A DNA stretch of 32,572 nucleotides from Nitrospinales bacterium. GTDB taxonomy: Bacteria > Nitrospinota_A > UBA7883 > JACRGQ01. Each line of letters starts with the position of its first letter. The stretch's first letter is position 1. The stretch is from positions 1-32,572 of the forward strand of contig JAHFEJ010000028.1 of the NCBI GenBank assembly GCA_023248535.1, read 5' to 3'. The position numbers and the translations under genes were made by a program. The notes under the pieces were generated by a model. The model was not told the origin of the DNA. It made no database searches and worked only from the letters and a program-made list of their open reading frames with translations. Of this stretch, positions 3,335 through 22,801 are shown in pieces.

Positions 3335-3400
3335 TAATGAACCGAAACCGCCGAAAACGGCTCTATGAACAGCATACGACCGATTAATACAGGAGGTATT

Positions 3401-3796
3401 ATGAAGGAAACCGGCTACGGCCTGTCGCGCGGCCTTACCATAGGATTTGATGCGGCGGAAAAACGGATACGCGAAACGCTGAAAGAACAGGGATTCGGCA
3501 TCCTCACGGAGATCGACGTTCAGCGGACGCTCAAAGACAAGATCGGCGCGGAAATGAAACGCTACAAAATCCTCGGCGCGTGCAACCCGAAGTTCGCCCA
3601 GAAAGCGCTCGCCACCGAAACCGAGATCGGCCTGATGATGCCGTGCAACGTCATCGTGTACGAAGGGGATGACGGCGCGGTTCACGTTTCGGCCATCGAT
3701 CCGCTGGCGGCGATGGGGGCCATCGGCATCGATGCGCTCAAGCCGCACGCGGCGGAAGTGCGCGAAAAACTGAAGAACGCGATCCTCGCCGTTTAA
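3401..3796 (+). CDS. DUF302 domain protein
   Basis: The 131-residue soluble protein has no signal peptide. Most of its length matches the DUF302 pattern: an amphipathic region with RIRETLKEQGFGILTEIDV, the central YKILGACNPKFAQKAL and the GLMMPCNVIVYE strand. DUF302 proteins are small alpha/beta proteins of unknown function found near respiratory and metal-related genes. The start at 3401 is set by AGGAGG seven bases upstream; an in-frame ATG at 3365 has no ribosome site. Cys residues occur in GACNP and MPCNV. It appears to be a single-gene unit. Confidence 0.85.
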   Translation: MKETGYGLSRGLTIGFDAAEKRIRETLKEQGFGILTEIDVQRTLKDKIGAEMKRYKILGACNPKFAQKALATETEIGLMMPCNVIVYEGDDGAVHVSAIDPLAAMGAIGIDALKPHAAEVREKLKNAILAV

Positions 3797-3994: not shown

Positions 3995-4474
3995 TTAGGG
4001 GTTCCTGAACACATCGTGGCAGTTTACGCATCCTTCGCCAATGGTGTTGGCCATCTTTTGCAGTTCCAGCATCGTGGCGATGGCGGCTTTTTCTTTCATC
4101 TCCGATGCGGTTGTGTGAACCTGCTCGTCAAAAACCGGGATGGTGTCTTTTATCATGTCGGCGTTCTTTTTAATGTAGGGCTTCAGTCCCCCTTTGGGCA
4201 TCGGGTGCGACGAGATGCCGGCGGCCCCCTGCTCCACCATGTAGCGGTTGTTGGTCATAATGCCCCACTGGATGCGGTTGAGGTTCGACGCCAGATCGTG
4301 CATCACCTGCATCAGGGTCAGGTCTTCGCGCCCCTTCTCCCCCGCTGCCGCTTCCTCATGCGAGTGCGCGTGCGGATCGGCCGGTTTGGCGGCGTGGCTG
4401 TGGCTGTGTTCAGCGGCAAAAGCGGTGGTTCCCATAATGATCAGCGCGGCGGCAAGCATCGGAAAAAATTTCAT
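3995..4474 (-). CDS. Cytochrome c'-like periplasmic protein
   Basis: The 159-residue protein has a signal peptide (KFFPMLAAALIIMGTTAFAA), a His-rich segment with repeated HSH/HAH (residues about 22-45), a helical body and a single heme motif near the C-terminus (GCVNCHDVFRNP). A C-terminal CxxCH after a four-helix body is the layout of class II cytochromes c (cytochrome c'/c-556). These bind gases or carry electrons in the periplasm. The start at 4474 is supported by GGAGG seven bases upstream; the longer frame from 4567 lacks one. The His-rich leader could bind metal ions, which is an inference. Confidence 0.8.
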   Translation of the reverse strand: MKFFPMLAAALIIMGTTAFAAEHSHSHAAKPADPHAHSHEEAAAGEKGREDLTLMQVMHDLASNLNRIQWGIMTNNRYMVEQGAAGISSHPMPKGGLKPYIKKNADMIKDTIPVFDEQVHTTASEMKEKAAIATMLELQKMANTIGEGCVNCHDVFRNP

Positions 4475-4681
4475 GTAAAGGCCTCCATATGTGTTGTTAT
4501 CCCGGTGCGTTGTTGTTCCGCGCATATATTTGCACAGGAAGTTGCGCGAGGATATGTCATTTGTCATGCGGGATTAACAGAGCCTTAACCAATTGGTCAA
4601 CTCACCTTAACATTGCATGATTACACTACACCCGTTGTTTGAATGGATACCCGCTGATTTCCAAATAAGGATCATTTTAAA

Positions 4682-6196
4682 ATGCCTGCAATTGCTGCGG
4701 TTGATATCGGCGCCAACGGGATGCGCATGATCGTCGGGAACATCGATAAAGACAACCGCCTTGATGCGATCGAGTGGTTTCGCGAACCCGTCCGCTTGGG
4801 GCAGGACGCGTTCGGTGCGGCGGGTGTGCTTTCGGAACAGGTCATTGACCGCGGTATCGAAACGCTCGGACGGTTCAGGGACATGATGGGAAAATACGGA
4901 GTGGTGCGGTCTAAAATCGTGGCCACCAGCGCGTTGCGCGAGGCGAAAAACCGGGATGTCTTCGTCGCCAGGGCCAGTAAAGAACTCGGGATGGACATCA
5001 TCATTATCGGCGCGGAAGAAGAAGCCCGGCTGATACATCTTGCCGTGCATGACAAGTTGCAGGCCAAAAAGAAAATGTCCCTTCTTGTCGACATCGGGGG
5101 CGGAAGCGTGGAAATTACGCTGGCTGCCGATGGGCAGGTACTTTCGACCGTCAGTTATGCGATAGGGACGGTGCGGCTTATGTGCGAACTGGGGGGGAAA
5201 AACCACGATGAGGGGGATTTCAACCAACTGGTGCACGAGTATGCGCGCTCCCTCCGCAAACAGCTTAAAAAAGAAATCGGCGAAAAGAAGATCGATCTTT
5301 GCGTCGGAACCGGCGGCAACATCGAATGTATGGGGGACTTGCGCCGGGAACTGCTTTCCAAAGATTCCAATTCCGTTATAAGCGTGGACGAGTTGAACGC
5401 CATAGTGAAAAAGCTTCGGGATTCTTCCTATTCGGAACGGGTGGGGCGCATGGGGCTTCGTCCCGACAGGGCGGACGTAATAGTTCCCGCCGCAATAGTC
5501 CTGCAACGGATCGTAAAACAGTCCGGCGCTTCTGAAATAACCGTTCCGCACGTCGGCTTGAAGGACGGCCTCTTGCTGGACATCCGGAATGGCCTCTATG
5601 GCGATAAGAACGATAGCGTCCACCGGGGACAGGTGCTTGCCTGGGCAAAACAGCTCGGCCGGAAATACGCCTTCGACGAACAGCACGCCGTAACCGTTTC
5701 CGCATTCAGCGTAAAACTGTTCGAAGCGACAAAGGAACTGCACGGCCTGAATGGCGACGCCCTCCTTCTCCTTGAAACCGCCGCCCTCCTCCACGATATC
5801 GGGCAATTCATCGACGTTTCCAAACACCACAAACACACCTATTACCTGCTTTCGGCTACCTCCATAATCGGGTTAAGCAGGCCCCAGATGGCGGTCGTGG
5901 CGAACATCGCCAGGTATCACCGGATGGCCTTCCCGAACGTGCGGCATGAGGGGTATGCCGCGCTGCCGATGAAAGACCGGGCCGTGACTTCGAAACTGGC
6001 GGCCATCCTGAGAATCGCCGACGCGATGGATATGGAACATGATTCGCAGGTAACCCATTTTAATCTGGAATTAAGCAAGTCCCGCTGCGCCATCCGGCTT
6101 AAAGGCAAAGGCGATCTCAAGCTGGAAAAATGGAAGCTGGCCAAAAAGGCCGGGCTGTTTGAAGAAGTTTTTAACATGAAAGTGGCCGTGGAATAA
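4682..6196 (+). CDS. Ppx/GppA-family phosphatase with C-terminal HD domain (exopolyphosphatase-like)
   Basis: Ppx/GppA proteins hydrolyse polyphosphate or the 5'-phosphate of pppGpp. The 504-residue protein starts with the ASKHA phosphate-1 motif (AVDIGANGMRMIVG), then TSALREAKN, IIGAEEEARLIHLA and VDIGGGSVEITL. After about residue 310 comes an HD-type region with ALLHDIGQFID near residue 370 and HHKHTYYLL. This is the long Ppx form, as in E. coli Ppx (513 residues). The usual Ser/Asn in the first loop (DIGSNS) is DIGANG here. It is the first gene of a tight operon: the next start is six bases after its stop. Polyphosphatase and pppGppase activity cannot be told apart by sequence alone. Confidence 0.85.
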   Translation: MPAIAAVDIGANGMRMIVGNIDKDNRLDAIEWFREPVRLGQDAFGAAGVLSEQVIDRGIETLGRFRDMMGKYGVVRSKIVATSALREAKNRDVFVARASKELGMDIIIIGAEEEARLIHLAVHDKLQAKKKMSLLVDIGGGSVEITLAADGQVLSTVSYAIGTVRLMCELGGKNHDEGDFNQLVHEYARSLRKQLKKEIGEKKIDLCVGTGGNIECMGDLRRELLSKDSNSVISVDELNAIVKKLRDSSYSERVGRMGLRPDRADVIVPAAIVLQRIVKQSGASEITVPHVGLKDGLLLDIRNGLYGDKNDSVHRGQVLAWAKQLGRKYAFDEQHAVTVSAFSVKLFEATKELHGLNGDALLLLETAALLHDIGQFIDVSKHHKHTYYLLSATSIIGLSRPQMAVVANIARYHRMAFPNVRHEGYAALPMKDRAVTSKLAAILRIADAMDMEHDSQVTHFNLELSKSRCAIRLKGKGDLKLEKWKLAKKAGLFEEVFNMKVAVE

Positions 6197-6201
6197 AAAT
6201 A

Positions 6202-6894
6202 ATGGAAAAGAAGAACCGGGCAAACAGCGAAATAACCGGCAAGCTGATAGCCGCCGAAGGACTGGACGGTTCGGGGAAATCCACCCAGATATATCTCATC
6301 AAACGGTGGCTGGAGCTTGAGGGGTATAAGGTGGCCTTTACCGAGTGGAACTCGTCGGCATTGGTCAAGGAAGCGACAAAGAAGGGGAAAAAACGCAAGA
6401 TGTTGACGCCGACAACCTTTTCGCTCATTCACAGCACCGATTTCGCCGACCGATACGAACGGCAGATTTTGCCCTTGTTGCAGGGCGGGTTCATCGTACT
6501 GGCCGACCGCTATGTATATACCGCGTTCGCGCGCGATGCCGTACGGGGTTGCAGCAGGGAATGGCTTCGCAAACTTTACGGATACGTGCGCCCGCCGGAC
6601 ATAACGTTCTTTTTCAAGATTCCGTTGGAAACCGCGTTCCACCGGATACTCGACGGCAGACCCCAACTCAAATACCACGAAGCGGGTTTGGACATGGGAC
6701 TTTCGGCCGACCCTTACGAAAGTTTCAGGCTGTTCCAGGGAAGGGTCTATGACGAATACCTGAGCATGGCGGATGAATTTAATTTCACCGCGGTGGATGG
6801 AAGCCAGCAGCCGAACGTGCAACAGGAAAATCTAAGGAACATTATCCAGCAAAGAATCGATCTTCCGAGGTACCGATGGAAAGACCACAGATAA
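6202..6894 (+). CDS. Thymidylate-kinase-like P-loop kinase (first paralogue)
   Basis: The 230-residue protein has the thymidylate kinase fold pattern: Walker A GLDGSGKST at residues 20-28 (intact Lys) and LADRYVYTAFARDAVRG near residues 100-116, in the place of the DRY motif. True dTMP kinases usually continue DRYxxSxxAYQ, with Gln helping bind the thymine base. Here that part is YTAFARD, so the substrate may differ. Its P-loop is set for phosphoryl transfer. It lies between the Ppx-like gene and a second paralogue, and its 3' end overlaps the next start by 19 bases, so translation is probably coupled. A polyphosphate-linked nucleotide kinase role is plausible from context but unproven. Confidence 0.75.
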   Translation: MEKKNRANSEITGKLIAAEGLDGSGKSTQIYLIKRWLELEGYKVAFTEWNSSALVKEATKKGKKRKMLTPTTFSLIHSTDFADRYERQILPLLQGGFIVLADRYVYTAFARDAVRGCSREWLRKLYGYVRPPDITFFFKIPLETAFHRILDGRPQLKYHEAGLDMGLSADPYESFRLFQGRVYDEYLSMADEFNFTAVDGSQQPNVQQENLRNIIQQRIDLPRYRWKDHR

Positions 6895-7664
6895 ACGTCA
6901 AGAATTTTTTCGGCTGTCAACTCCCGGGCGTTGATCCCTCCGCGTTGAAAGGGAAACTGATAGTGCTGGAAGGCGCGGACGGTTCGGGCCGCTCCACGCA
7001 GATAGAGATACTCAGGAACTGGCTGGAACGGACAGGCCATGCCTGCGTTACAGTCGGGCTTAAGCGCTCCATGCTCGTGGGCGAAGAACTGGAAAAGGCC
7101 AAGCAGGGGAATATCATGGGCCCGATAACCCGGAGCCTCTTTTACGCCACCGACTTCGCCGACCAGCTTGAAAACAAGATCATCCCCAGCCTGCGCGCCG
7201 GTTTCGTGGTATTGGCCGACCGGTACATTTATACCTTGATGGCGCGGGATATAATCCGCGGCGCCGATCCGGATTGGATAAGGAATATTTACGGCATAGC
7301 GCTGGTGCCGGATGCCGTTTTTTATATTCAGGTGCCGCCCAAAACGCTTGCGGAGCGGAACCTGCGCAAGAACCACATGCTGGATTATTGGGAATCGGGG
7401 ATGGATATCCGCCGGTCAGGCGACATGTTCGAATCCTTCATCCACTACCAGACCCAGGTGCAACGGACGTTCGGCTGGATGCATACGATATACGGGTTCA
7501 AGATAATAAACGGCAACCGGTTGGTGAAAACAATCGCGAACGAACTGCAGGCAAAGATAGAGGGGTTACTGTCGCCGCAAACCGTTTTGGCTGGCGGCGG
7601 CGGAACGGGCGATGGGGCTTACCCGGAACATATGGTTCTTACACAAAATCAGGAGAAAATATGA
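6876..7664 (+). CDS. Thymidylate-kinase-like protein with Walker A Lys replaced by Arg (second paralogue)
   Basis: This 262-residue protein is clearly related to the preceding gene product. It shares LADRYIYTLMARDIIRG, matching LADRYVYTAFARDAVRG in the first, and a central ATDFADQ/STDFADR block. Its P-loop reads EGADGSGRST (residues 32-41): codon CGC gives Arg39 where Walker A needs Lys. This usually abolishes or strongly lowers ATP hydrolysis, so it may be a regulatory or scaffold partner, perhaps in a heterodimer with its neighbour. An N-terminal extension of about 25 residues and a Gly-rich C-terminal tail are extra. Its TGA overlaps the next ATG (ATGA at 7661-7664). Confidence 0.75.
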   Translation: MERPQINVKNFFGCQLPGVDPSALKGKLIVLEGADGSGRSTQIEILRNWLERTGHACVTVGLKRSMLVGEELEKAKQGNIMGPITRSLFYATDFADQLENKIIPSLRAGFVVLADRYIYTLMARDIIRGADPDWIRNIYGIALVPDAVFYIQVPPKTLAERNLRKNHMLDYWESGMDIRRSGDMFESFIHYQTQVQRTFGWMHTIYGFKIINGNRLVKTIANELQAKIEGLLSPQTVLAGGGGTGDGAYPEHMVLTQNQEKI

Positions 7665-8080
7665 TAACAAGCGTACCGGAACAACAGGCGGCCCGGCCGG
7701 ACAAAAAAGACGGCGTAAAGGATAAAACTCCCGTACCCGTCAAATCGCAAGGCCTGCCCGCCAAGAGCGCATCCGTCAAGAAGGCCGCGAAGAAAAAACG
7801 CGAAGAGGAGGTATTGGATACGCTGACGCACCTGAGAACCGTCACGAAAGAGATAAGCAGGGCTTATATTGCCAATGTCGAACGCGACATCCTGGAGATT
7901 TCACACTTCATCGCCTCCACCGGTAAGAAAAAGGGAGGGCCGAAGGCAATTGACAAATCCACCCTGGATCGGATGGAAGAGATACTGCACGGGCTTTCCC
8001 TTAAACCCTCAAAAGGGCGCAGGAGCGACCTGAAAAAGATCGATAAGGCGGTGGGCTCAATCGCCCGCCTTATTTCTTAG
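7661..8080 (+). CDS. Small Lys-rich protein of unknown function, last gene of the ppx-kinase operon
   Basis: The 139-residue protein has no family I recognise. Residues 1-50 are low-complexity and basic (several KK/KKK runs, PAKSASVKKAAKKKREEE). Residues 50-90 look like an amphipathic helix (TLTHLRTVTKEISRAYIANV), and the C-terminal part is basic again. There is no signal peptide, membrane segment or Cys. The start overlaps the previous stop, with AGGAG eight bases upstream. The Lys-rich composition and the place behind a Ppx-like gene suggest a polyphosphate- or nucleic-acid-binding protein. That is inference only. Confidence 0.75.
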   Translation: MITSVPEQQAARPDKKDGVKDKTPVPVKSQGLPAKSASVKKAAKKKREEEVLDTLTHLRTVTKEISRAYIANVERDILEISHFIASTGKKKGGPKAIDKSTLDRMEEILHGLSLKPSKGRRSDLKKIDKAVGSIARLIS

Positions 8081-8138: not shown

Positions 8139-8283
8139 CGCGGCGTCCTTCCTGGAATATCCGCTTGATTTAAACGAAATATAACCCGCCTGTAAGAATG
8201 CCTTAATCCCCGCCCGGTATGCTGGAACCGTAAAAAACGGAGATGCGGCCTGGACAATATGAAATTTGGCAAGGAGGAACGGT

Positions 8284-8835
8284 ATGGGCATCGAGTTTTG
8301 GGTCTTTGCGGCGGTGTCCATAGTGCTCACCACTTTAGTCATGGGGGCTATGGCGGCTATTGTGGGATATTCCCTGGGCAAAAGAGAGATTGAGGAGGTT
8401 GCCAAAATGATAAAATTTAATACAAGGAAAGCCGATAACATCGCCTTTCTGGCCCTTAAAGGGAACCTTTCTTTCGACGGCCTTTCCGGCGGCGAACTTT
8501 CCGAGATTGGCGACACGATCAAACGTGAGATTAATAATTTGGAAAGCTCGAAAGTCATCATAGACCTTTCAGGCGTAAGCAAGGTCGATTCCTCCGTAAT
8601 AGGTTTTCTGGTTCTCATTTATAAACGCGTCGTGTTGCGCAATGGCGCCATTGTATTTATCCATCCCGGCGATGAGGGCATCAGGAACAAGCTCCATGAG
8701 CTGGGCCTCACCAAGGTGTTTAGATTCCACGAAAGTGAGGACGTTGCCATAATGGCAATGCAATCGAAACAGGAACCCGGAATACCCCCAACCTTTTTTC
8801 TCAATGAATGTAGCCGCAACGCAACAATATCCTAA
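8284..8835 (+). CDS. Membrane-anchored STAS-domain protein (anti-sigma factor antagonist type)
   Basis: The 183-residue protein starts with one transmembrane segment (residues 4-32, WVFAAVSIVLTTLVMGAMAA). It is followed by a STAS domain (about 45-155) with VIIDLSGVSKVDSSVIGFL. The DSS at residues 102-104 matches the Ser that RsbW/SpoIIAB-type kinases phosphorylate in anti-anti-sigma factors. A membrane-bound STAS is uncommon compared with soluble RsbV/SpoIIAA. The start is chosen at 8284 because AAGGAGG precedes it; the in-frame ATG at 8266 lies before that site. The next gene, a c-di-GMP protein, begins 67 bases downstream, so co-transcription is likely. A receiver-HATPase protein at 23293-24279 could act on it (inference). 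Confidence 0.8.
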   Translation: MGIEFWVFAAVSIVLTTLVMGAMAAIVGYSLGKREIEEVAKMIKFNTRKADNIAFLALKGNLSFDGLSGGELSEIGDTIKREINNLESSKVIIDLSGVSKVDSSVIGFLVLIYKRVVLRNGAIVFIHPGDEGIRNKLHELGLTKVFRFHESEDVAIMAMQSKQEPGIPPTFFLNECSRNATIS

Positions 8836-8902: not shown

Positions 8903-10804
8903 ATGAGCATGTTGAAGATGAGTTTCACAACCGCCGATGCCAATGTTCGTGTTATGGATGCGGAAGAATGGAAAAATGCAATTCAAGCCATCGAATTTGT
9001 TTTCCAGCCGATAGCGAACACGCTGACCTCCTCGTATATCGGCTATGAAGCCCTGCTAAGGGGATATGAACGGGCGGGGTTTAAAAGCATTGATGCCGTG
9101 TTCGATAGCGCCCATGCCCAAGACATGTTAATGAAAGTCACCCTGCTTTTGCTGGACAAAAAACTGGAAGCGTATGTCTCATCCGGATGTTTCTCATATG
9201 CGAAGCTGTTCGTGAATGTCGACAGCAGGATTCTGCCGCAAACGAGATATTTTATGTCGGCAATGGATGAAATGCTTACAAATCGCCAAATACCCAAATC
9301 CAGCATAGTTGTGGAAATTTCCGAAAGGTTCGAGATTAGCCATGAACTCGACTCCACCGTGTTTCATGAGATAAAGAATGGGGGAGTTGGAATCGCCCTT
9401 GATGATTATGGGGCCAATTTTTCCGGTCTCCGGCTTCTTTACCATTCGGAGCCGCACTATATAAAAGTAGACCGGTTTTTTATCTCGGGGATACATCATG
9501 ACATCAAGAAAAGGATATTTCTTTCCAGCTTGGTCAGTAAGGCGCATATGCTGGGAATGCTTATAATCGCCGAAGGGGTGGAAACCTGCGAGGAGTTTTA
9601 CCTCTGCAAGGAGCTTGGGTGCGATATGGTACAGGGATATCTTATCCAAAGACCCGGCAGGATTGCGCCTGGAATGAACCGGCGGTCTCCAAGCGTGGAA
9701 GGGCTCAACACAAGCGATAAACGCACCTATGGTTCCGACGGCAGGCTGATAACATCCCTTATGAACCATATCAGCCCGGTCATGTTAGCCAACGCAGATC
9801 TTGGCGCGGCAAGCGTGGATTCGATTTTCAATACCTTCCGCGAAAATAAATACCTGAATTTCATTCCGGTGATCAACGAAGCGGGCGAGCCTGCCGGGAT
9901 CATACTGGAGAGGGATATAAAGGAATTTGTATATTCCCAATACGGCCATTCCCTCCTGAAACATAAAGGGGTCGATATAAAACAGTTCGTCACCCGCTCC
10001 CCTGTTTTCGAAATAACCTCAAATGTGGAAAAGATACTTGAAGGGTTTTCCATGAACAAAGATGCCGAAGGGGTGCTGATTACAAAAAATGGAAAATACG
10101 CCGGTCTCCTGTATGCAAAATCCCTTCTGCGCATGCTTTACGAAAAAAATGTATCGACCGCCCGTGACCAGAATCCCTTGTCAAAGTTGCCAGGCAACAA
10201 CATTATCCATGACTATTTATCAAAGGCCATCAAATCAACGGATTATAGCCACATAATCTCATATTTCGATTTCAACAACTTCAAGCCGTTTAACGATACG
10301 CATGGATTCAGGAAAGGCGATAAGGCCATATTGCTATTTGCGGATTTGCTCAGGGAGCTTGCGGCGGAGGGCGTTTTTGTGGGGCATATCGGCGGGGACG
10401 ATTTCTTTGCCGGTTTCCGCGATGATGCGGAATGTTTCGCCAATGCATTCGATAAGATCAAGGGCGTTATCGCCCAATTCGCGGAGCAAGCCGCCGAGCT
10501 TTACACGCAGGATGAACGGGAAAAAGGTTGCATCACATCCGTGGACAGGGAGGGGAAATTGAAATTATTCCCCTTGCTTACCGTTTCTGCCGCCGTGCTG
10601 AATGTTCCCATCGGTGCGCGGATATATTCAATGGAGGATATTGGGGCCATCCTTGCCGACGTTAAAAAATCGGCTAAACATGCAGAGACTCATATGGCAT
10701 GGGTATCGCTTGGCACTGGCGTGGGCAACCATGATGTCATCGGAACCAAAGACGCATCCCGTATGGCCGGCGCTTCGCATAACGGAGCCGCTGCCGTAGA
10801 ATAA
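8903..10804 (+). CDS. EAL-CBS-GGDEF protein (c-di-GMP turnover)
   Basis: The 633-residue cytosolic protein has three parts. The EAL phosphodiesterase domain (about 25-260) keeps YEALLRGY (Glu49), the N of FVNVD, VVEISE, ALDDYG (Asp167-168), IKVDR, AEGVE and the final VQGYLI, so it looks active. A pair of CBS motifs follows (about 285-415). A GGDEF-type domain (about 430-600) has FDFNNFKPFND and HIGGDDFFAGF (residues 497-501), with GGDDF in place of GGDEF/GGEEF. No RxxD inhibitory site is visible before GGDDF. CBS pairs usually sense adenosyl nucleotides. GGGAGGA lies just before the ATG. The gene sits between the STAS protein and a carboxylate transporter. Confidence 0.88.
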   Translation: MSMLKMSFTTADANVRVMDAEEWKNAIQAIEFVFQPIANTLTSSYIGYEALLRGYERAGFKSIDAVFDSAHAQDMLMKVTLLLLDKKLEAYVSSGCFSYAKLFVNVDSRILPQTRYFMSAMDEMLTNRQIPKSSIVVEISERFEISHELDSTVFHEIKNGGVGIALDDYGANFSGLRLLYHSEPHYIKVDRFFISGIHHDIKKRIFLSSLVSKAHMLGMLIIAEGVETCEEFYLCKELGCDMVQGYLIQRPGRIAPGMNRRSPSVEGLNTSDKRTYGSDGRLITSLMNHISPVMLANADLGAASVDSIFNTFRENKYLNFIPVINEAGEPAGIILERDIKEFVYSQYGHSLLKHKGVDIKQFVTRSPVFEITSNVEKILEGFSMNKDAEGVLITKNGKYAGLLYAKSLLRMLYEKNVSTARDQNPLSKLPGNNIIHDYLSKAIKSTDYSHIISYFDFNNFKPFNDTHGFRKGDKAILLFADLLRELAAEGVFVGHIGGDDFFAGFRDDAECFANAFDKIKGVIAQFAEQAAELYTQDEREKGCITSVDREGKLKLFPLLTVSAAVLNVPIGARIYSMEDIGAILADVKKSAKHAETHMAWVSLGTGVGNHDVIGTKDASRMAGASHNGAAAVE

Positions 10805-18051: not shown

Positions 18052-18855
18052 ATGTCAGAACATCACCACCAGAAAAAAACCCCGGCTCAAAAGACGTTCG
18101 AGTTGCTTTCCGCCCTCTTAACCGACAACCCGATATACAAATCGATCTTCCGCACCGGCTACCCCAGCACGCTGCTTAAGCAAATGGCCGTCATGCGGTC
18201 CAGCTTCTACATGCATATTTTCCCCACCAAGGTTGGCGAACACGGCCTCCGGCTGCGCTACTCCTGGTGCATGGGGGGAATCACCTTTTTCCTGTTCCTG
18301 CTCCTCGCGCTCACCGGCATCCTGCTGATGTTCTACTATGTGCCGGAAGAGCACCGCGCCTTCAACGACATGAAAGACCTGCGTTTCATGGTGCCATTCG
18401 GGGTCATATTGCGTAATATGCACCGCTGGGCGGCGCATGCCATGGTGTTGGCCGTGATGCTGCACATGATGCGCGTTTTCTACACCGGCTCTTACAAAGC
18501 CCCCCGGCAACTCAACTGGGTGGTGGGCGTTCTTCTGCTGCTGTTCACCCTGCTCCTCTCGTTCACCGGCTACCTGTTGCCGTGGGATCAGCTGGGGTTC
18601 TGGGCCGTGACTGTGGGAACCAACATGGCATCCGCCTCGCCGCTAGTGGGATATGAAGGCCCTTTCCATGAATTGCTGGGCGTGCAGGTTGACAATGACA
18701 TCCGGTTCGCCATCATCGGCGGCACGCGCATCGGGCCGAACGCGCTGGTGCGCGCGTATGTGTGGCATTGCGTCGGCATCCCGCTGGTGGCGACGTTGCT
18801 GATGGTCTTCCACTTTTGGAGAATCCGCAAAGACGGTTTCTCGGGTCCTTTGTGA
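18052..18855 (+). CDS. Cytochrome b N-terminal subunit (cytochrome b6-like)
   Basis: The 267-residue integral membrane protein binds two b hemes across the inner membrane. It shows the paired His sites [20 protein letters not shown] and [20 protein letters not shown], four main transmembrane helices, and [19 protein letters not shown], typical of the Qo-side helix. The cytosolic N-terminus is long and His/Lys-rich ([10 protein letters not shown]). Only the b6-like half is encoded; the second half is a separate gene, as in b6f and in many bacterial bc complexes of anaerobic lineages. Confidence 0.92.
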
Positions 18856-18871
18856 GCGGGGGGAGGCAATG

Positions 18872-19678
18872 ATGGAACAGGAATTCAGGTCGGACAAATC
18901 CGGCTACATGCTCATGAACAAGCCGGGGTATCCCCGGGTGCCGTCGTGGCCCAACCTCGTGTGGGTCATTTTCCTTATGATGCTGTTCATAACGATCCTG
19001 CTGTGGGGCGTTTCTTTTCTGGCGTACGCGCCCCTGGAAGAAATGGCGGAGTGGGCCAAAACCCCCAACCCGGCGAAAGCGCCGTGGTACTTTATCGGCC
19101 TGCAGGAACTGCTGGTCTATTTCGATCCGTGGATCGCCGGCGTGATGTTGCCGAACCAGATACTGATCGGCCTCATACTGATTCCGTACGTCGACATCAC
19201 CCCGACCGAACAGGGGCATTACCGCTGGAGCCAACGCCGCTTCGCCGTGGCGTACTTTACCTTCGGCATCGCGTTCTGGGCCACCCTTATTTTCGTCGGC
19301 CAGCTGCTGCGCGGACCGAGCTGGCAAATCTACTGGCCGATCATCGACTACGATCTCACCGGCCATAGCTGGACCCGCGAAGGGATACCGCTAAAACAGG
19401 GAGGCCTCAAGCTTGCCTCGCTTTCCACCGGCACGGGCATGGCGCTGCTCATCGGTTTCTTCAGCATCGGCATGATCCTGCCCTTTATGGTGACCAAGCT
19501 CTTCCCGAAATCAAACGTGGTGCAGGGGCTGGACCGGTATTTAAAGGAGCTTGGTTATATCAAGTACTTTGTCGTGCAAAGCCACGTTTTGATGATGACG
19601 GCGACGGTGGTAAAAATCATTTTGCGGCTCGGCTTCAACATCAAGTACATCATCGAAACCCCGTGGTTTAAAATATAA
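18872..19678 (+). CDS. Cytochrome b C-terminal subunit (subunit IV-like)
   Basis: The 268-residue membrane protein follows the b6-like subunit. It contains the Qo-site equivalent PWYFIGLQELLVYF (the PEWY-loop position reads KAPWY), then LPNQILIGLILIPYVDI and further helices. It is longer than plant subunit IV (about 160 residues). The extra C-terminal part has two more hydrophobic segments, one near TGTGMALLIGFFSIGMILPF, and ends in a helix reaching IIETPWFKI. ATG 18872 is preferred to 18869 because the GGAGG spacing is five rather than two bases. Confidence 0.88.
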   Translation: MEQEFRSDKSGYMLMNKPGYPRVPSWPNLVWVIFLMMLFITILLWGVSFLAYAPLEEMAEWAKTPNPAKAPWYFIGLQELLVYFDPWIAGVMLPNQILIGLILIPYVDITPTEQGHYRWSQRRFAVAYFTFGIAFWATLIFVGQLLRGPSWQIYWPIIDYDLTGHSWTREGIPLKQGGLKLASLSTGTGMALLIGFFSIGMILPFMVTKLFPKSNVVQGLDRYLKELGYIKYFVVQSHVLMMTATVVKIILRLGFNIKYIIETPWFKI

Positions 19679-19689
19679 AGTAGGCAACC

Positions 19690-20943
19690 ATGATTGAAAA
19701 GATTGTCATAGCGATACTCGTTGTAAACGTACTCGGTTTCATCGTGCTGTGGACCCGGAACCAGAACATGCTATACGCCCTCTTCGCCACTTCGTTGCTG
19801 GCCCTGTTCGGGCTGACCGTCGCCAAGGAGTACTCGGCGGAATGGCGCCACTTCCAGCACGAATACATTGAAATGGCCGTTGGACTCGAAAAAAACCCCG
19901 AAACGGTTCAAACGCTCAAGCGCACCCCCATTAAGATTCTCCAGGTGTGGAACAACGAATTGGGGATCACCGACCGGTGCGTCTCATGCCATCTGGGATA
20001 CGACAACCCCGCCTTCAAAGACGCCCCGGAGCCGTTCCGGTACCATGCGGCGGCCCGCGAACACGATTTTAACAAGATTGGCTGCACGATCTGCCACCAA
20101 GGGCAGGGACACGCGACCGAGAAAACCGAAGCGCACGCACACCACATCGTGGCTTGGGATTTCCCGATGTGGCCGAACAACATGGTGCAGCTCTCCTGCC
20201 CGCAATGCCACGAAGAACTGTTCCGGCCCGGATACCGCCTGAAAGGAGCCGAGATGATCACCGCTTCACGCGACATCGTCGATGGCGTGAACGAACTGGG
20301 AGTAAAATGCACCTCCTGCCACACGATCCGCGGCGTGGGCGAAGTGCTGGGACCGGACCTGACCGAATTTGGGGAGAAAATCGGCCACGAATTCGACGGC
20401 ACCCATGTGATGAAATATGTCGAGGGCGAAAAAAACAAGTACAACTGGACGTTCCAGCACTTCAAGGATCCGGCGAAAATCACGCCCAACGATCCGGAGC
20501 TTAAGCTGGAAGAGACCGTTATGCCCAACTTCGGCTTCACCGATGAGCAGGCGCACGCCCTCGCGGTTTATGTTTTCAGCTTCCGCACACCGAAGCTGCC
20601 GGCCAAGTACCTCTACCACAACAGCCAACTGTATATGAAAAAGGGGGGAGAAACCGCCTCATTCATAAACGATTACGAGCGGCAATTCCCCGATCTCAAC
20701 TCCCTGCCGGTGGGCCAACGGCTCTTCATCAAATCGAAGTGCTGGTTCTGCCATACCATTGAAGGCAAGGGAGGCAAGATCGGGCCCGATCTCACCAAGG
20801 TTGGCGGCCGGTACGACAAGGAAAAGATGCTGGAATTCTGGAACAATCCGTCGAAGATGGCCAAGCACGGCCTTGGGGTGAAGTTTAATTTGGATGAAAG
20901 CCAGATGGAGCAGATTGCCGATTTCTTGCTGACGCTGAAATAA
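19690..20943 (+). CDS. Membrane-anchored pentaheme c-type cytochrome
   Basis: The 417-residue protein has two N-terminal hydrophobic segments (about 3-22 and 28-46) and then a periplasmic region with five CxxCH heme motifs at residues 97 (CVSCH), 132 (CTICH), 170 (CPQCH), 207 (CTSCH) and 351 (CWFCH). The last lies in a class I-like domain ending with MEQIADFLLTL. It probably takes the cytochrome c1 or f role in the complex, passing electrons from the Rieske protein to soluble or membrane acceptors. It follows the cytochrome b subunits by 11 bases. Confidence 0.9.
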   Translation: MIEKIVIAILVVNVLGFIVLWTRNQNMLYALFATSLLALFGLTVAKEYSAEWRHFQHEYIEMAVGLEKNPETVQTLKRTPIKILQVWNNELGITDRCVSCHLGYDNPAFKDAPEPFRYHAAAREHDFNKIGCTICHQGQGHATEKTEAHAHHIVAWDFPMWPNNMVQLSCPQCHEELFRPGYRLKGAEMITASRDIVDGVNELGVKCTSCHTIRGVGEVLGPDLTEFGEKIGHEFDGTHVMKYVEGEKNKYNWTFQHFKDPAKITPNDPELKLEETVMPNFGFTDEQAHALAVYVFSFRTPKLPAKYLYHNSQLYMKKGGETASFINDYERQFPDLNSLPVGQRLFIKSKCWFCHTIEGKGGKIGPDLTKVGGRYDKEKMLEFWNNPSKMAKHGLGVKFNLDESQMEQIADFLLTLK

Positions 20944-20953
20944 GTTGCCCAAA

Positions 20954-20998
20954 CGCCTGATTATCCGTACTATGGGAATAGGCACGACTAATCAGGCG
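20954..20998. repeat. Inverted repeat between the pentaheme and oxidoreductase genes
   Basis: CGCCTGATTA (20954-20963) and TAATCAGGCG (20989-20998) are perfect 10-base arms in the 76-bp gap. It may be an mRNA processing or attenuation structure that sets the ratio of membrane to soluble subunits, or an operator. No T-run follows, so it is not a clear terminator. Confidence 0.55.
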
Positions 20999-21019
20999 AG
21001 ATGTATGAAAGGTTGAATT

Positions 21020-22801
21020 ATGGCTTCGGAGACAAAGCGCGCATACGATTTCCTGTATGACCAGCGCTCCTATCAAGGGGTGCCGTGCCAGACCAACTGC
21101 CCGGTTCACACCGACGTTGAAGGCTACATAAAACACATCCATGAAGGGAATTTTGAGGCGGCGCACCGCCTGATACGCGAAACCAACCCCTTCCCGGCCG
21201 TCTGCGGCCGCGTATGCCAGCACTGGTGCGAGCGGGGATGCAACCGCCGCATGATAGACCAGTCGATTTCCATCATGTCGCTTAAGCGGTCCGCGACCGA
21301 CTATTCCAAAAATACGTTTAAGTTGCCGGAACAGCGCTACAATACGCTGGAACGGGTTGCGATCATCGGCGCCGGCCCCGCCGGCCTTACCACCGCGCAC
21401 GACCTGGCAAAGCTGGGCTACCGTCCCACCGTATTTGAAATGTTCCCGCATCCGGGGGGCATGATGCGCTACGGCATCCCGGCCTACCGGTTGCCGCGCG
21501 AGGTGATCGATTTCGAGGTGGAATATATCAAGCGGCTCGGCGTGGAGATCCGGTACAACACGATGGTGGGCCGCGACATCCACTTCCACGAGATGCAGGC
21601 TGAATTCAAGGCGATCCTCATCGCCGCGGGGGCGCACAAAGCCGTGCACCTGAAGGTGCCGGGCGAAAACCTGAAAGGGGTCTATCACGGCTGTACCTTC
21701 ATGCAGCTGGTGAACTTGGGCAAATCCCTGCCGCCAATGGCCGGCAAGACCGTGGCCGTCATTGGCGGCGGCTTCACCGCGATGGACGTTTCCCGCTCCA
21801 GCATCCGCCTCGGCGCCAAAAAAGTGTATATCGTCTACCGCCGCACACGGGCGGAAATCCCGGTTAACGAAAAGGAGATCACCGAGGCCGAGGATGAGGG
21901 GATCGAATTCCGCTACCTCGAGGCCCCCGTGGAGATCGTCTCCAATGACGGCGTCAACGTCAGCGGCATCAAGTTGATCAAATCGGAACTGGGCGAACCG
22001 GACGCCTCCGGCCGCCGCAAGCCGGTGCCGGTGGAAGGCTCGGAGTTTATCCTCGAGTGCGACTACGTCATGCCGGCCGTTTCCCAATCGCCCGACATGT
22101 CGTTCATCTCCCAAAAGTCCGGTTTGCGCCTCACCACCTGGGGATCGCTGGACGTGAACCAGAAGTTCGAGACCAATCTGCCGGGCATCTTCGCCACCGG
22201 CGATTACATCACCGGCACCCGCGACGTGATCAATGTCGTGGCGGACGGCCACCGCGCGGCGATCAGCATCGATTCCTACCTGCGCGGCGTCAGCGGCGAA
22301 TACAGCCGGACGGAAAACCTCCACCTCGAAGAGGATCAGACGCCGGTGAAATTGGCCTCCTACGACAACATCAGCCGCCACCACGCCGAATACATTCCCG
22401 TGAACCTGCGCCTCAACACCTTTGAAGAAGTGGAACGTACCTTCACGAAGGAAGAGGCGATACTTGAAGCGGCCCGTTGCTTCCAGTGCAGCCACACGTG
22501 GCGCTACAATTCCGATACCTGTATCCTCTGCAATAACTGCGTGGATGTCTGTCCGCAGAAATGCCTGGGCATGGCGGAATTGACCGAGCTGGAATTCAAC
22601 CGCCTTTTTAACGAGGATATCAGCCTTAAAGAGCAGGGTATCACCGGCATCGAGATCGACCGCGATCTGTGCATCCGCTGTACTTTCTGCGCCCAGGTCT
22701 GCCCGACCGATTCCATCGATTTCACCACATACAAAAAGACGGAAACCCGGGTGCCGGGAGCAGTAGGGCCGTTAAAAACCGAGGGGAAGGGAAAGAAGTA
22801 A
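21020..22801 (+). CDS. GltD-like FAD/NAD(P)-binding oxidoreductase with C-terminal double [4Fe-4S] ferredoxin domain
   Basis: The 593-residue soluble protein belongs to the glutamate synthase small-subunit-like family. Its N-terminal Cys cluster region (CQTNCPVHTDVEGYI to GRVCQHWCERGC, residues 23-74) binds [4Fe-4S]. FAD-binding RVAIIGAGPAGLTTAHDL is near residue 113, and the second Rossmann motif TVAVIGGGFTAMDVSRS follows. LPGIFATGDYITG closes the flavin domain. The C-terminus (about 500-570) has CILCNNCVDVCPQKC and CIRCTFCAQVCPTDSIDF, a two-cluster ferredoxin. No gltB large subunit is present. In this operon it may exchange electrons between NAD(P)H, ferredoxin and the quinol-oxidising complex; that role is inferred. 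Confidence 0.88.
   Translation: MASETKRAYDFLYDQRSYQGVPCQTNCPVHTDVEGYIKHIHEGNFEAAHRLIRETNPFPAVCGRVCQHWCERGCNRRMIDQSISIMSLKRSATDYSKNTFKLPEQRYNTLERVAIIGAGPAGLTTAHDLAKLGYRPTVFEMFPHPGGMMRYGIPAYRLPREVIDFEVEYIKRLGVEIRYNTMVGRDIHFHEMQAEFKAILIAAGAHKAVHLKVPGENLKGVYHGCTFMQLVNLGKSLPPMAGKTVAVIGGGFTAMDVSRSSIRLGAKKVYIVYRRTRAEIPVNEKEITEAEDEGIEFRYLEAPVEIVSNDGVNVSGIKLIKSELGEPDASGRRKPVPVEGSEFILECDYVMPAVSQSPDMSFISQKSGLRLTTWGSLDVNQKFETNLPGIFATGDYITGTRDVINVVADGHRAAISIDSYLRGVSGEYSRTENLHLEEDQTPVKLASYDNISRHHAEYIPVNLRLNTFEEVERTFTKEEAILEAARCFQCSHTWRYNSDTCILCNNCVDVCPQKCLGMAELTELEFNRLFNEDISLKEQGITGIEIDRDLCIRCTFCAQVCPTDSIDFTTYKKTETRVPGAVGPLKTEGKGKK

Follow-up and report, generated by a model that had tools for sequence, protein, structure and literature searches.

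A paired thymidylate-kinase-like locus found in many bacterial phyla probably encodes a PPK3-type polyphosphate kinase with a catalytic and a regulatory subunit

Kinases of the PPK2 family act on polyphosphate and nucleotides. In Sulfolobus acidocaldarius, Hofmann et al. reportedly describe a family 3 polyphosphate kinase, PPK3, whose catalytic subunit is said to be encoded by saci_2019 and whose regulatory subunit by saci_2020. The two genes are reportedly annotated as thymidylate kinase and located downstream of ppx, and the complex is said to favour the formation of ATP from polyphosphate. Two other publications cite the work of this group on a distinct Sulfolobus polyphosphate kinase, a preprint and a paper (Hofmann et al., bioRxiv 10.1101/2024.08.28.610084, 2024; JBC 302:111283, 2026). 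A gene cluster of SixA, PPX, dTMP kinase and CHAD occurs in the archaeon Metallosphaera and its relatives (PMC10892726), CHAD being a polyphosphate-binding domain (PMC6537752). For the PPK2 of F. tularensis, a basic lid (Arg/Lys) has been proposed to bind polyphosphate, and the nearest solved structures outside the PPK2 family are 2PLR and 4NZY (PMC4748334, Table 4). Both of these entries are ST1543 of Sulfolobus tokodaii, a protein deposited as a dTMP kinase (PDB 2plr, 4nzy, 4rzx, 5h70).

We analyzed a window of 32,572 nucleotides, the whole of the stretch studied here (contig JAHFEJ010000028.1 of a Nitrospinales bacterium), and found a compact run of four genes at 4682-8080, all on the + strand, with the following features.

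4682 to 6196, + strand: Ppx/GppA-family phosphatase with a C-terminal HD domain (Pfam), 504 aa, the first gene of the run
6202 to 6894, + strand: KIN1, a thymidylate-kinase-fold protein of 230 aa with intact Walker A Lys26, DRY and basic lid (R148/R153/K157); putatively catalytic (cPPK3-like)
6876 to 7664, + strand: KIN2, a KIN1 paralogue of 262 aa with Walker A Lys changed to Arg (R39); putatively regulatory and catalytically impaired (rPPK3-like)
7661 to 8080, + strand: small Lys-rich protein of 139 aa belonging to no named family, with a disordered basic N-terminus, three predicted helices and the motif LKPSKGRRSDLKKID
8050 to 8069, + strand: terminator-like hairpin at the 3' end of the run, a weak call from a scan whose total was not above that of shuffles

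The genes are tightly packed: a gap of 5 bases separates the Ppx/GppA-HD gene from KIN1, the KIN1 and KIN2 reading frames overlap by 19 bases, as the initial annotation of this DNA had reported, and the KIN2 stop and the start of the Lys-rich reading frame share a 4-base ATGA. The first protein matches the Pfam families Ppx-GppA (161 bits), Ppx-GppA_III (88 bits) and HD (33 bits). The Walker A sequences are GLDGSGKSTQ in KIN1 and GADGSGRSTQ in KIN2, and the change of Lys to Arg at residue 39 of the latter had been read correctly at the outset. The same annotation had also suggested that the set is not described as a unit. This is not borne out: PPK3 is reported to consist, likewise, of a catalytic and a regulatory subunit of the TMK family, encoded next to each other downstream of ppx by genes annotated as thymidylate kinases. 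In contrast to archaeal PPK3, the pair described here is bacterial and spread over many phyla, an invariant Lys/Arg Walker A pair is documented in the bacterial set, and a small LKPxKGRR protein, known here from bacterial loci alone, accompanies it.

Automatic annotation has KIN1 and KIN2 as ordinary or duplicated thymidylate kinases. In line with this, both match Pfam Thymidylate_kin (KIN1 64.6 bits, KIN2 69.7 bits), both score just below the cut-off of 83.25 bits of the NCBIfam model TIGR00041 dTMP_kinase (80.9 and 73.9 bits), and their relative ST1543 carries the same assignment; the fold, P-loop, DRY motif and core helices are common to canonical Tmk and the pair. However, a Tmk that scores in full is encoded on a different contig of the window's genome (144.5 bits, where KIN1 and KIN2 reach 64-71), and 42 of the 45 pair genomes likewise had a separate high-scoring Tmk. 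Comparison with 11 canonical Tmk sequences, taken from bacteria of the same family, revealed that the dTMP-binding AYQ that follows DRY is replaced by ARD in KIN1, KIN2 and ST1543, and that EPTNG is replaced by EWNSS in KIN1. In a maximum-likelihood tree, the KIN1 and KIN2 groups were both split from Tmk at 100/100; KIN1 grouped with ST1543 at 96/95, ST1543 being a long branch whose exact place is unsure, and KIN2 formed a weaker group of its own (81/54). Given also the Lys-to-Arg change fixed in one of two paralogues and the polyphosphate genes that surround them (see below), we consider an ordinary thymidylate kinase function highly improbable.

ST1543 is the closest solved structure to KIN1 and KIN2 by sequence, and to KIN2 by fold as well. 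It has EWNSS, DF(A/S)DRYER, DRYxYTxxARDxxRG and the basic lid in common with KIN1, and differs from the pair in being a single archaeal protein with a deposited dTMP kinase function. Judged by ST1543 and by the reported subunit roles, KIN1 and KIN2 may be orthologous to Saci_2019 and Saci_2020, respectively. Resemblance to PPK2 was also seen: the conserved lid residues R148, R153 and K157 of KIN1 recall the lid Arg/Lys of that family (PF03976), which further has a P-loop kinase fold, the Walker A Lys and a DR motif in common with KIN1. PPK2 is nevertheless a separate family, and a search for PF03976 in KIN1, in KIN2 and in the whole genome of the window returned no match.

To describe the pair across bacteria, we scanned genome contigs with KIN2 and kept 80 loci from 384 stretches encoding relatives at any level; genes in GC-rich loci were called from conservation-ranked open reading frames, greedy longest-frame calling having produced antisense artefacts. 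The loci span about 14 phylum-level groups (Nitrospinota, Ignavibacteriota, Acidobacteriota, Geobacteraceae, Verrucomicrobiota, Planctomycetota, Zixibacteria, Edwardsbacteria, KSB1, Omnitrophota, Lindowbacteria, Chloroflexota, and the UBP2 and UBP4 lineages). KIN1 was directly upstream of KIN2 in 79 of the 80, and at the sole exception KIN2 starts 167 bases from the contig end. In the alignment, all 80 KIN1 sequences had Lys as the Walker A residue and all 80 KIN2 sequences had Arg, the window included; Verrucomicrobiota dominate the sample and the counts are thus not independent, but the Lys/Arg pattern spans every group sampled. The Geobacter order gave 19 copies with the same two residues, part of them in genomes that the sample already included. 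The Lys/Arg arrangement is not a matter of chance: all intact pairs that were looked at, in the 79 loci and in the 19 Geobacter-order copies, have it. The initial annotation had named recurrence among orthologues as one point on which its proposal turned, and second genes with a normal Lys and no kept order did not appear. One genome of the Geobacter order, G113, holds two complete copies of the pair (L113 and L129), each with its own small gene. Natural KIN1-KIN2 fusions, sought as evidence of a heterodimer, were not found, and plasmids, searched for close relatives or for an entry point from archaea, yielded distant matches only (identity up to about 32%), mostly annotated as dTMP kinases.

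The two proteins differ in their basic residues. In KIN1, Lys26, Arg84, Arg87, Arg111, Arg115, Arg148, Arg153 and Arg212 are present in 80/80 sequences and Lys157 in 79/80. At the equivalent positions (KIN1 numbering), KIN2 has Arg26, Gln84 and Asn87 in 80/80, mostly Asn at 153, and Asp or Asn at 157 in 80/80. A change of the P-loop Lys to Arg usually abolishes phosphoryl transfer, as established by P-loop enzymology. Conceivably, the P-loop Arg notwithstanding, KIN2 is an active kinase and has its own substrate, which would be a variant of a PPK3 assignment rather than a full alternative to it: the Arg is invariant, the fold is intact in an AlphaFold2 model (nearest structure ST1543, TM 0.89-0.93 normalised by target), and the Walker A Asp, DRY, Arg111, Arg115 and Arg148 are retained. 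We nonetheless find an active KIN2 unlikely, as it runs against that enzymology and against the loss of R84, R87, R153 and K157, residues conserved in 79-80 of the 80 KIN1 sequences. This loss of basic residues, together with the Sulfolobus precedent, suggests instead that KIN2 is a regulatory subunit.

Genes that recur around the loci encode PPX, ROK-family kinases, CHAD proteins, SixA-like phosphatases and Pho/Pst components. Among 47 loci with long flanks, Pfam searches found PPX at 24, ROK at 23, CHAD at 11 and SixA at 7, and 38 of the 47 had at least one PPX, CHAD, ROK, SixA or small-protein gene on the same strand. The ROK family includes polyphosphate glucokinases. At one Lindowbacteria locus (L080; genome G049, contig C259), a two-domain PPK2 adjoins KIN2, an arrangement seen in that genome only. 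In several Geobacteraceae loci (in L037 at 5436-5966), a helix-hairpin-helix protein with a Lys-rich, weakly phasin-like tail lies near the pair together with SixA.

These neighbors also bear on whether the pair could be a nucleotide kinase of other specificity (AMP, GMP or a signalling nucleotide) whose partner is a GppA-like pppGpp phosphatase rather than an exopolyphosphatase. The window's own phosphatase leaves room for this, for the NCBIfam Ppx and GppA equivalog models score it equally, both far under cut-off, and it fits neither over the other. However, the recurrent CHAD, SixA, PPX, ROK and PPK2 neighbors point to polyphosphate and not to (p)ppGpp, and KIN1 retains a PPK2-like basic lid; we therefore regard a kinase of this kind as very unlikely.

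Taken together, these results suggest that the run most probably encodes a bacterial PPK3-type polyphosphate kinase, with KIN1 as the catalytic and KIN2 as the regulatory subunit. What argues for the PPK3 assignment is the order of the pair, the invariant Lys/Arg, the loss of the dTMP determinant AYQ, the separate Tmk, the phylogenetic grouping with ST1543, the PPK2-like lid, the polyphosphate neighbors and the co-occurrence of the small protein described below. It also fits the archaeal SixA-PPX-dTMP kinase-CHAD cluster (PMC10892726) and the reported existence of a distinct Sulfolobus polyphosphate kinase. The assignment is weakened by the deposition of ST1543 as a dTMP kinase and its long branch, by the many pair genomes that also have PPK2 or PPK1, and by a sample that is mostly Verrucomicrobiota. 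The active kinase with a pseudokinase partner, linked to polyphosphate, that was proposed initially gains support from the conserved pair, the losses in KIN2 and the neighbors.

From these observations we infer an activity, a substrate, a hetero-oligomer and a role for the small protein, as follows. KIN1, an enzyme of the thymidylate kinase fold, would have given up dTMP in favour of polyphosphate and would move phosphate between this polymer and a nucleotide, ADP/ATP being the most likely. KIN2, which keeps the fold and has lost basic catalytic and lid residues, would have no catalytic role and would serve KIN1 as a regulatory or structural partner, the two most likely forming a hetero-oligomer. 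The Ppx homologue may hydrolyze the same polymer, and the small Lys-rich protein is probably an accessory that binds polyphosphate or serves as a scaffold.

A general replacement of PPK1 and PPK2 by the pair is ruled out, since PPK2 occurs, as a family apart, in 34/45 and PPK1 in 17/45 of the genomes with the pair. In the genome of the window (98% complete), searches for PPK1 and PPK2 found neither; both are absent also from 4 of the 45 pair genomes, these being mostly draft assemblies in which single absences carry little weight. In some genomes, this one included, the pair is the only candidate polyphosphate kinase that our searches of the sequence found.

The Lys-rich protein, listed in the initial annotation as a member of the set, indeed belongs to it and is more than a bystander. 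It is conserved as a family: Lys115, Lys118, Gly119, Arg120 and Asp123 are invariant in 18 aligned members, around the motif LKPxKGRRKDLKxID, and AlphaFold2 predicts three helices after the disordered basic N-terminus (mean pLDDT 81). Searches of Pfam and NCBIfam gave no match common to members or over a curated cut-off, profile and sequence searches of the PDB gave none at all, and a PDB fold search returned nothing under E 1.8; a literature search made without the use of its sequence found no description, and the protein is apparently undescribed. It was present in 27/45 pair genomes, and in 25 of the 27 it lay near the pair on the same contig. Of 24 genomes of the window's phylum, 3 have the pair, and these 3 are also the ones with the small gene. 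In the Geobacter order, the 18 genomes with the pair, out of 141, are exactly the 18 with the small gene, and one of them has two copies of each; ignoring kinship, this match of 18 in 141 has a chance probability of about 4e-23, though shared ancestry makes the true value less extreme. The small gene is missing from most Verrucomicrobiota loci, many of which carry a ROK gene directly after KIN2 instead. Judged by this co-occurrence, the small protein is a putative dedicated partner of the KIN1-KIN2 pair. More tentatively, and at rather less than even confidence, we suggest a three-part bacterial PPK3 in which KIN1 is catalytic, KIN2 is a pseudokinase and the small LKPxKGRR protein binds polyphosphate and directs or anchors its synthesis, the whole being the sole polyphosphate-making enzyme where PPK1 and PPK2 are absent, as here.

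In many bacterial phyla, an annotation as thymidylate kinase thus probably conceals polyphosphate kinases. This would extend PPK3 beyond archaea and would explain how polyphosphate could be made or used in bacteria that have neither PPK1 nor PPK2. The invariant Lys/Arg pair provides a simple sequence test for telling the catalytic from the regulatory subunit, and the small third protein offers itself as a target for experiments. Should the work on PPK3 already list bacterial members or the Walker A change, the pair would be known and only the small protein new.

Other genes of the window were recorded as well. Upstream of ppx lie a short protein with a weak cytochrome c' match and a CVNCH motif (3995-4567, - strand) and a DUF302 protein (3365-3796, + strand), and further out a stand-alone GmrSD N-terminal (DUF262-type) protein that is possibly defence-related (92-1093, - strand). 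Downstream of the four-gene run, a STAS-domain protein (8266-8835) is followed by an EAL-CBS-GGDEF protein of the c-di-GMP turnover type (8903-10804, + strand), and genes for cytochrome b, a multi-domain cytochrome c and a pyridine-nucleotide oxidoreductase with Fe-S domains are clustered at 18052-22801 (+ strand).
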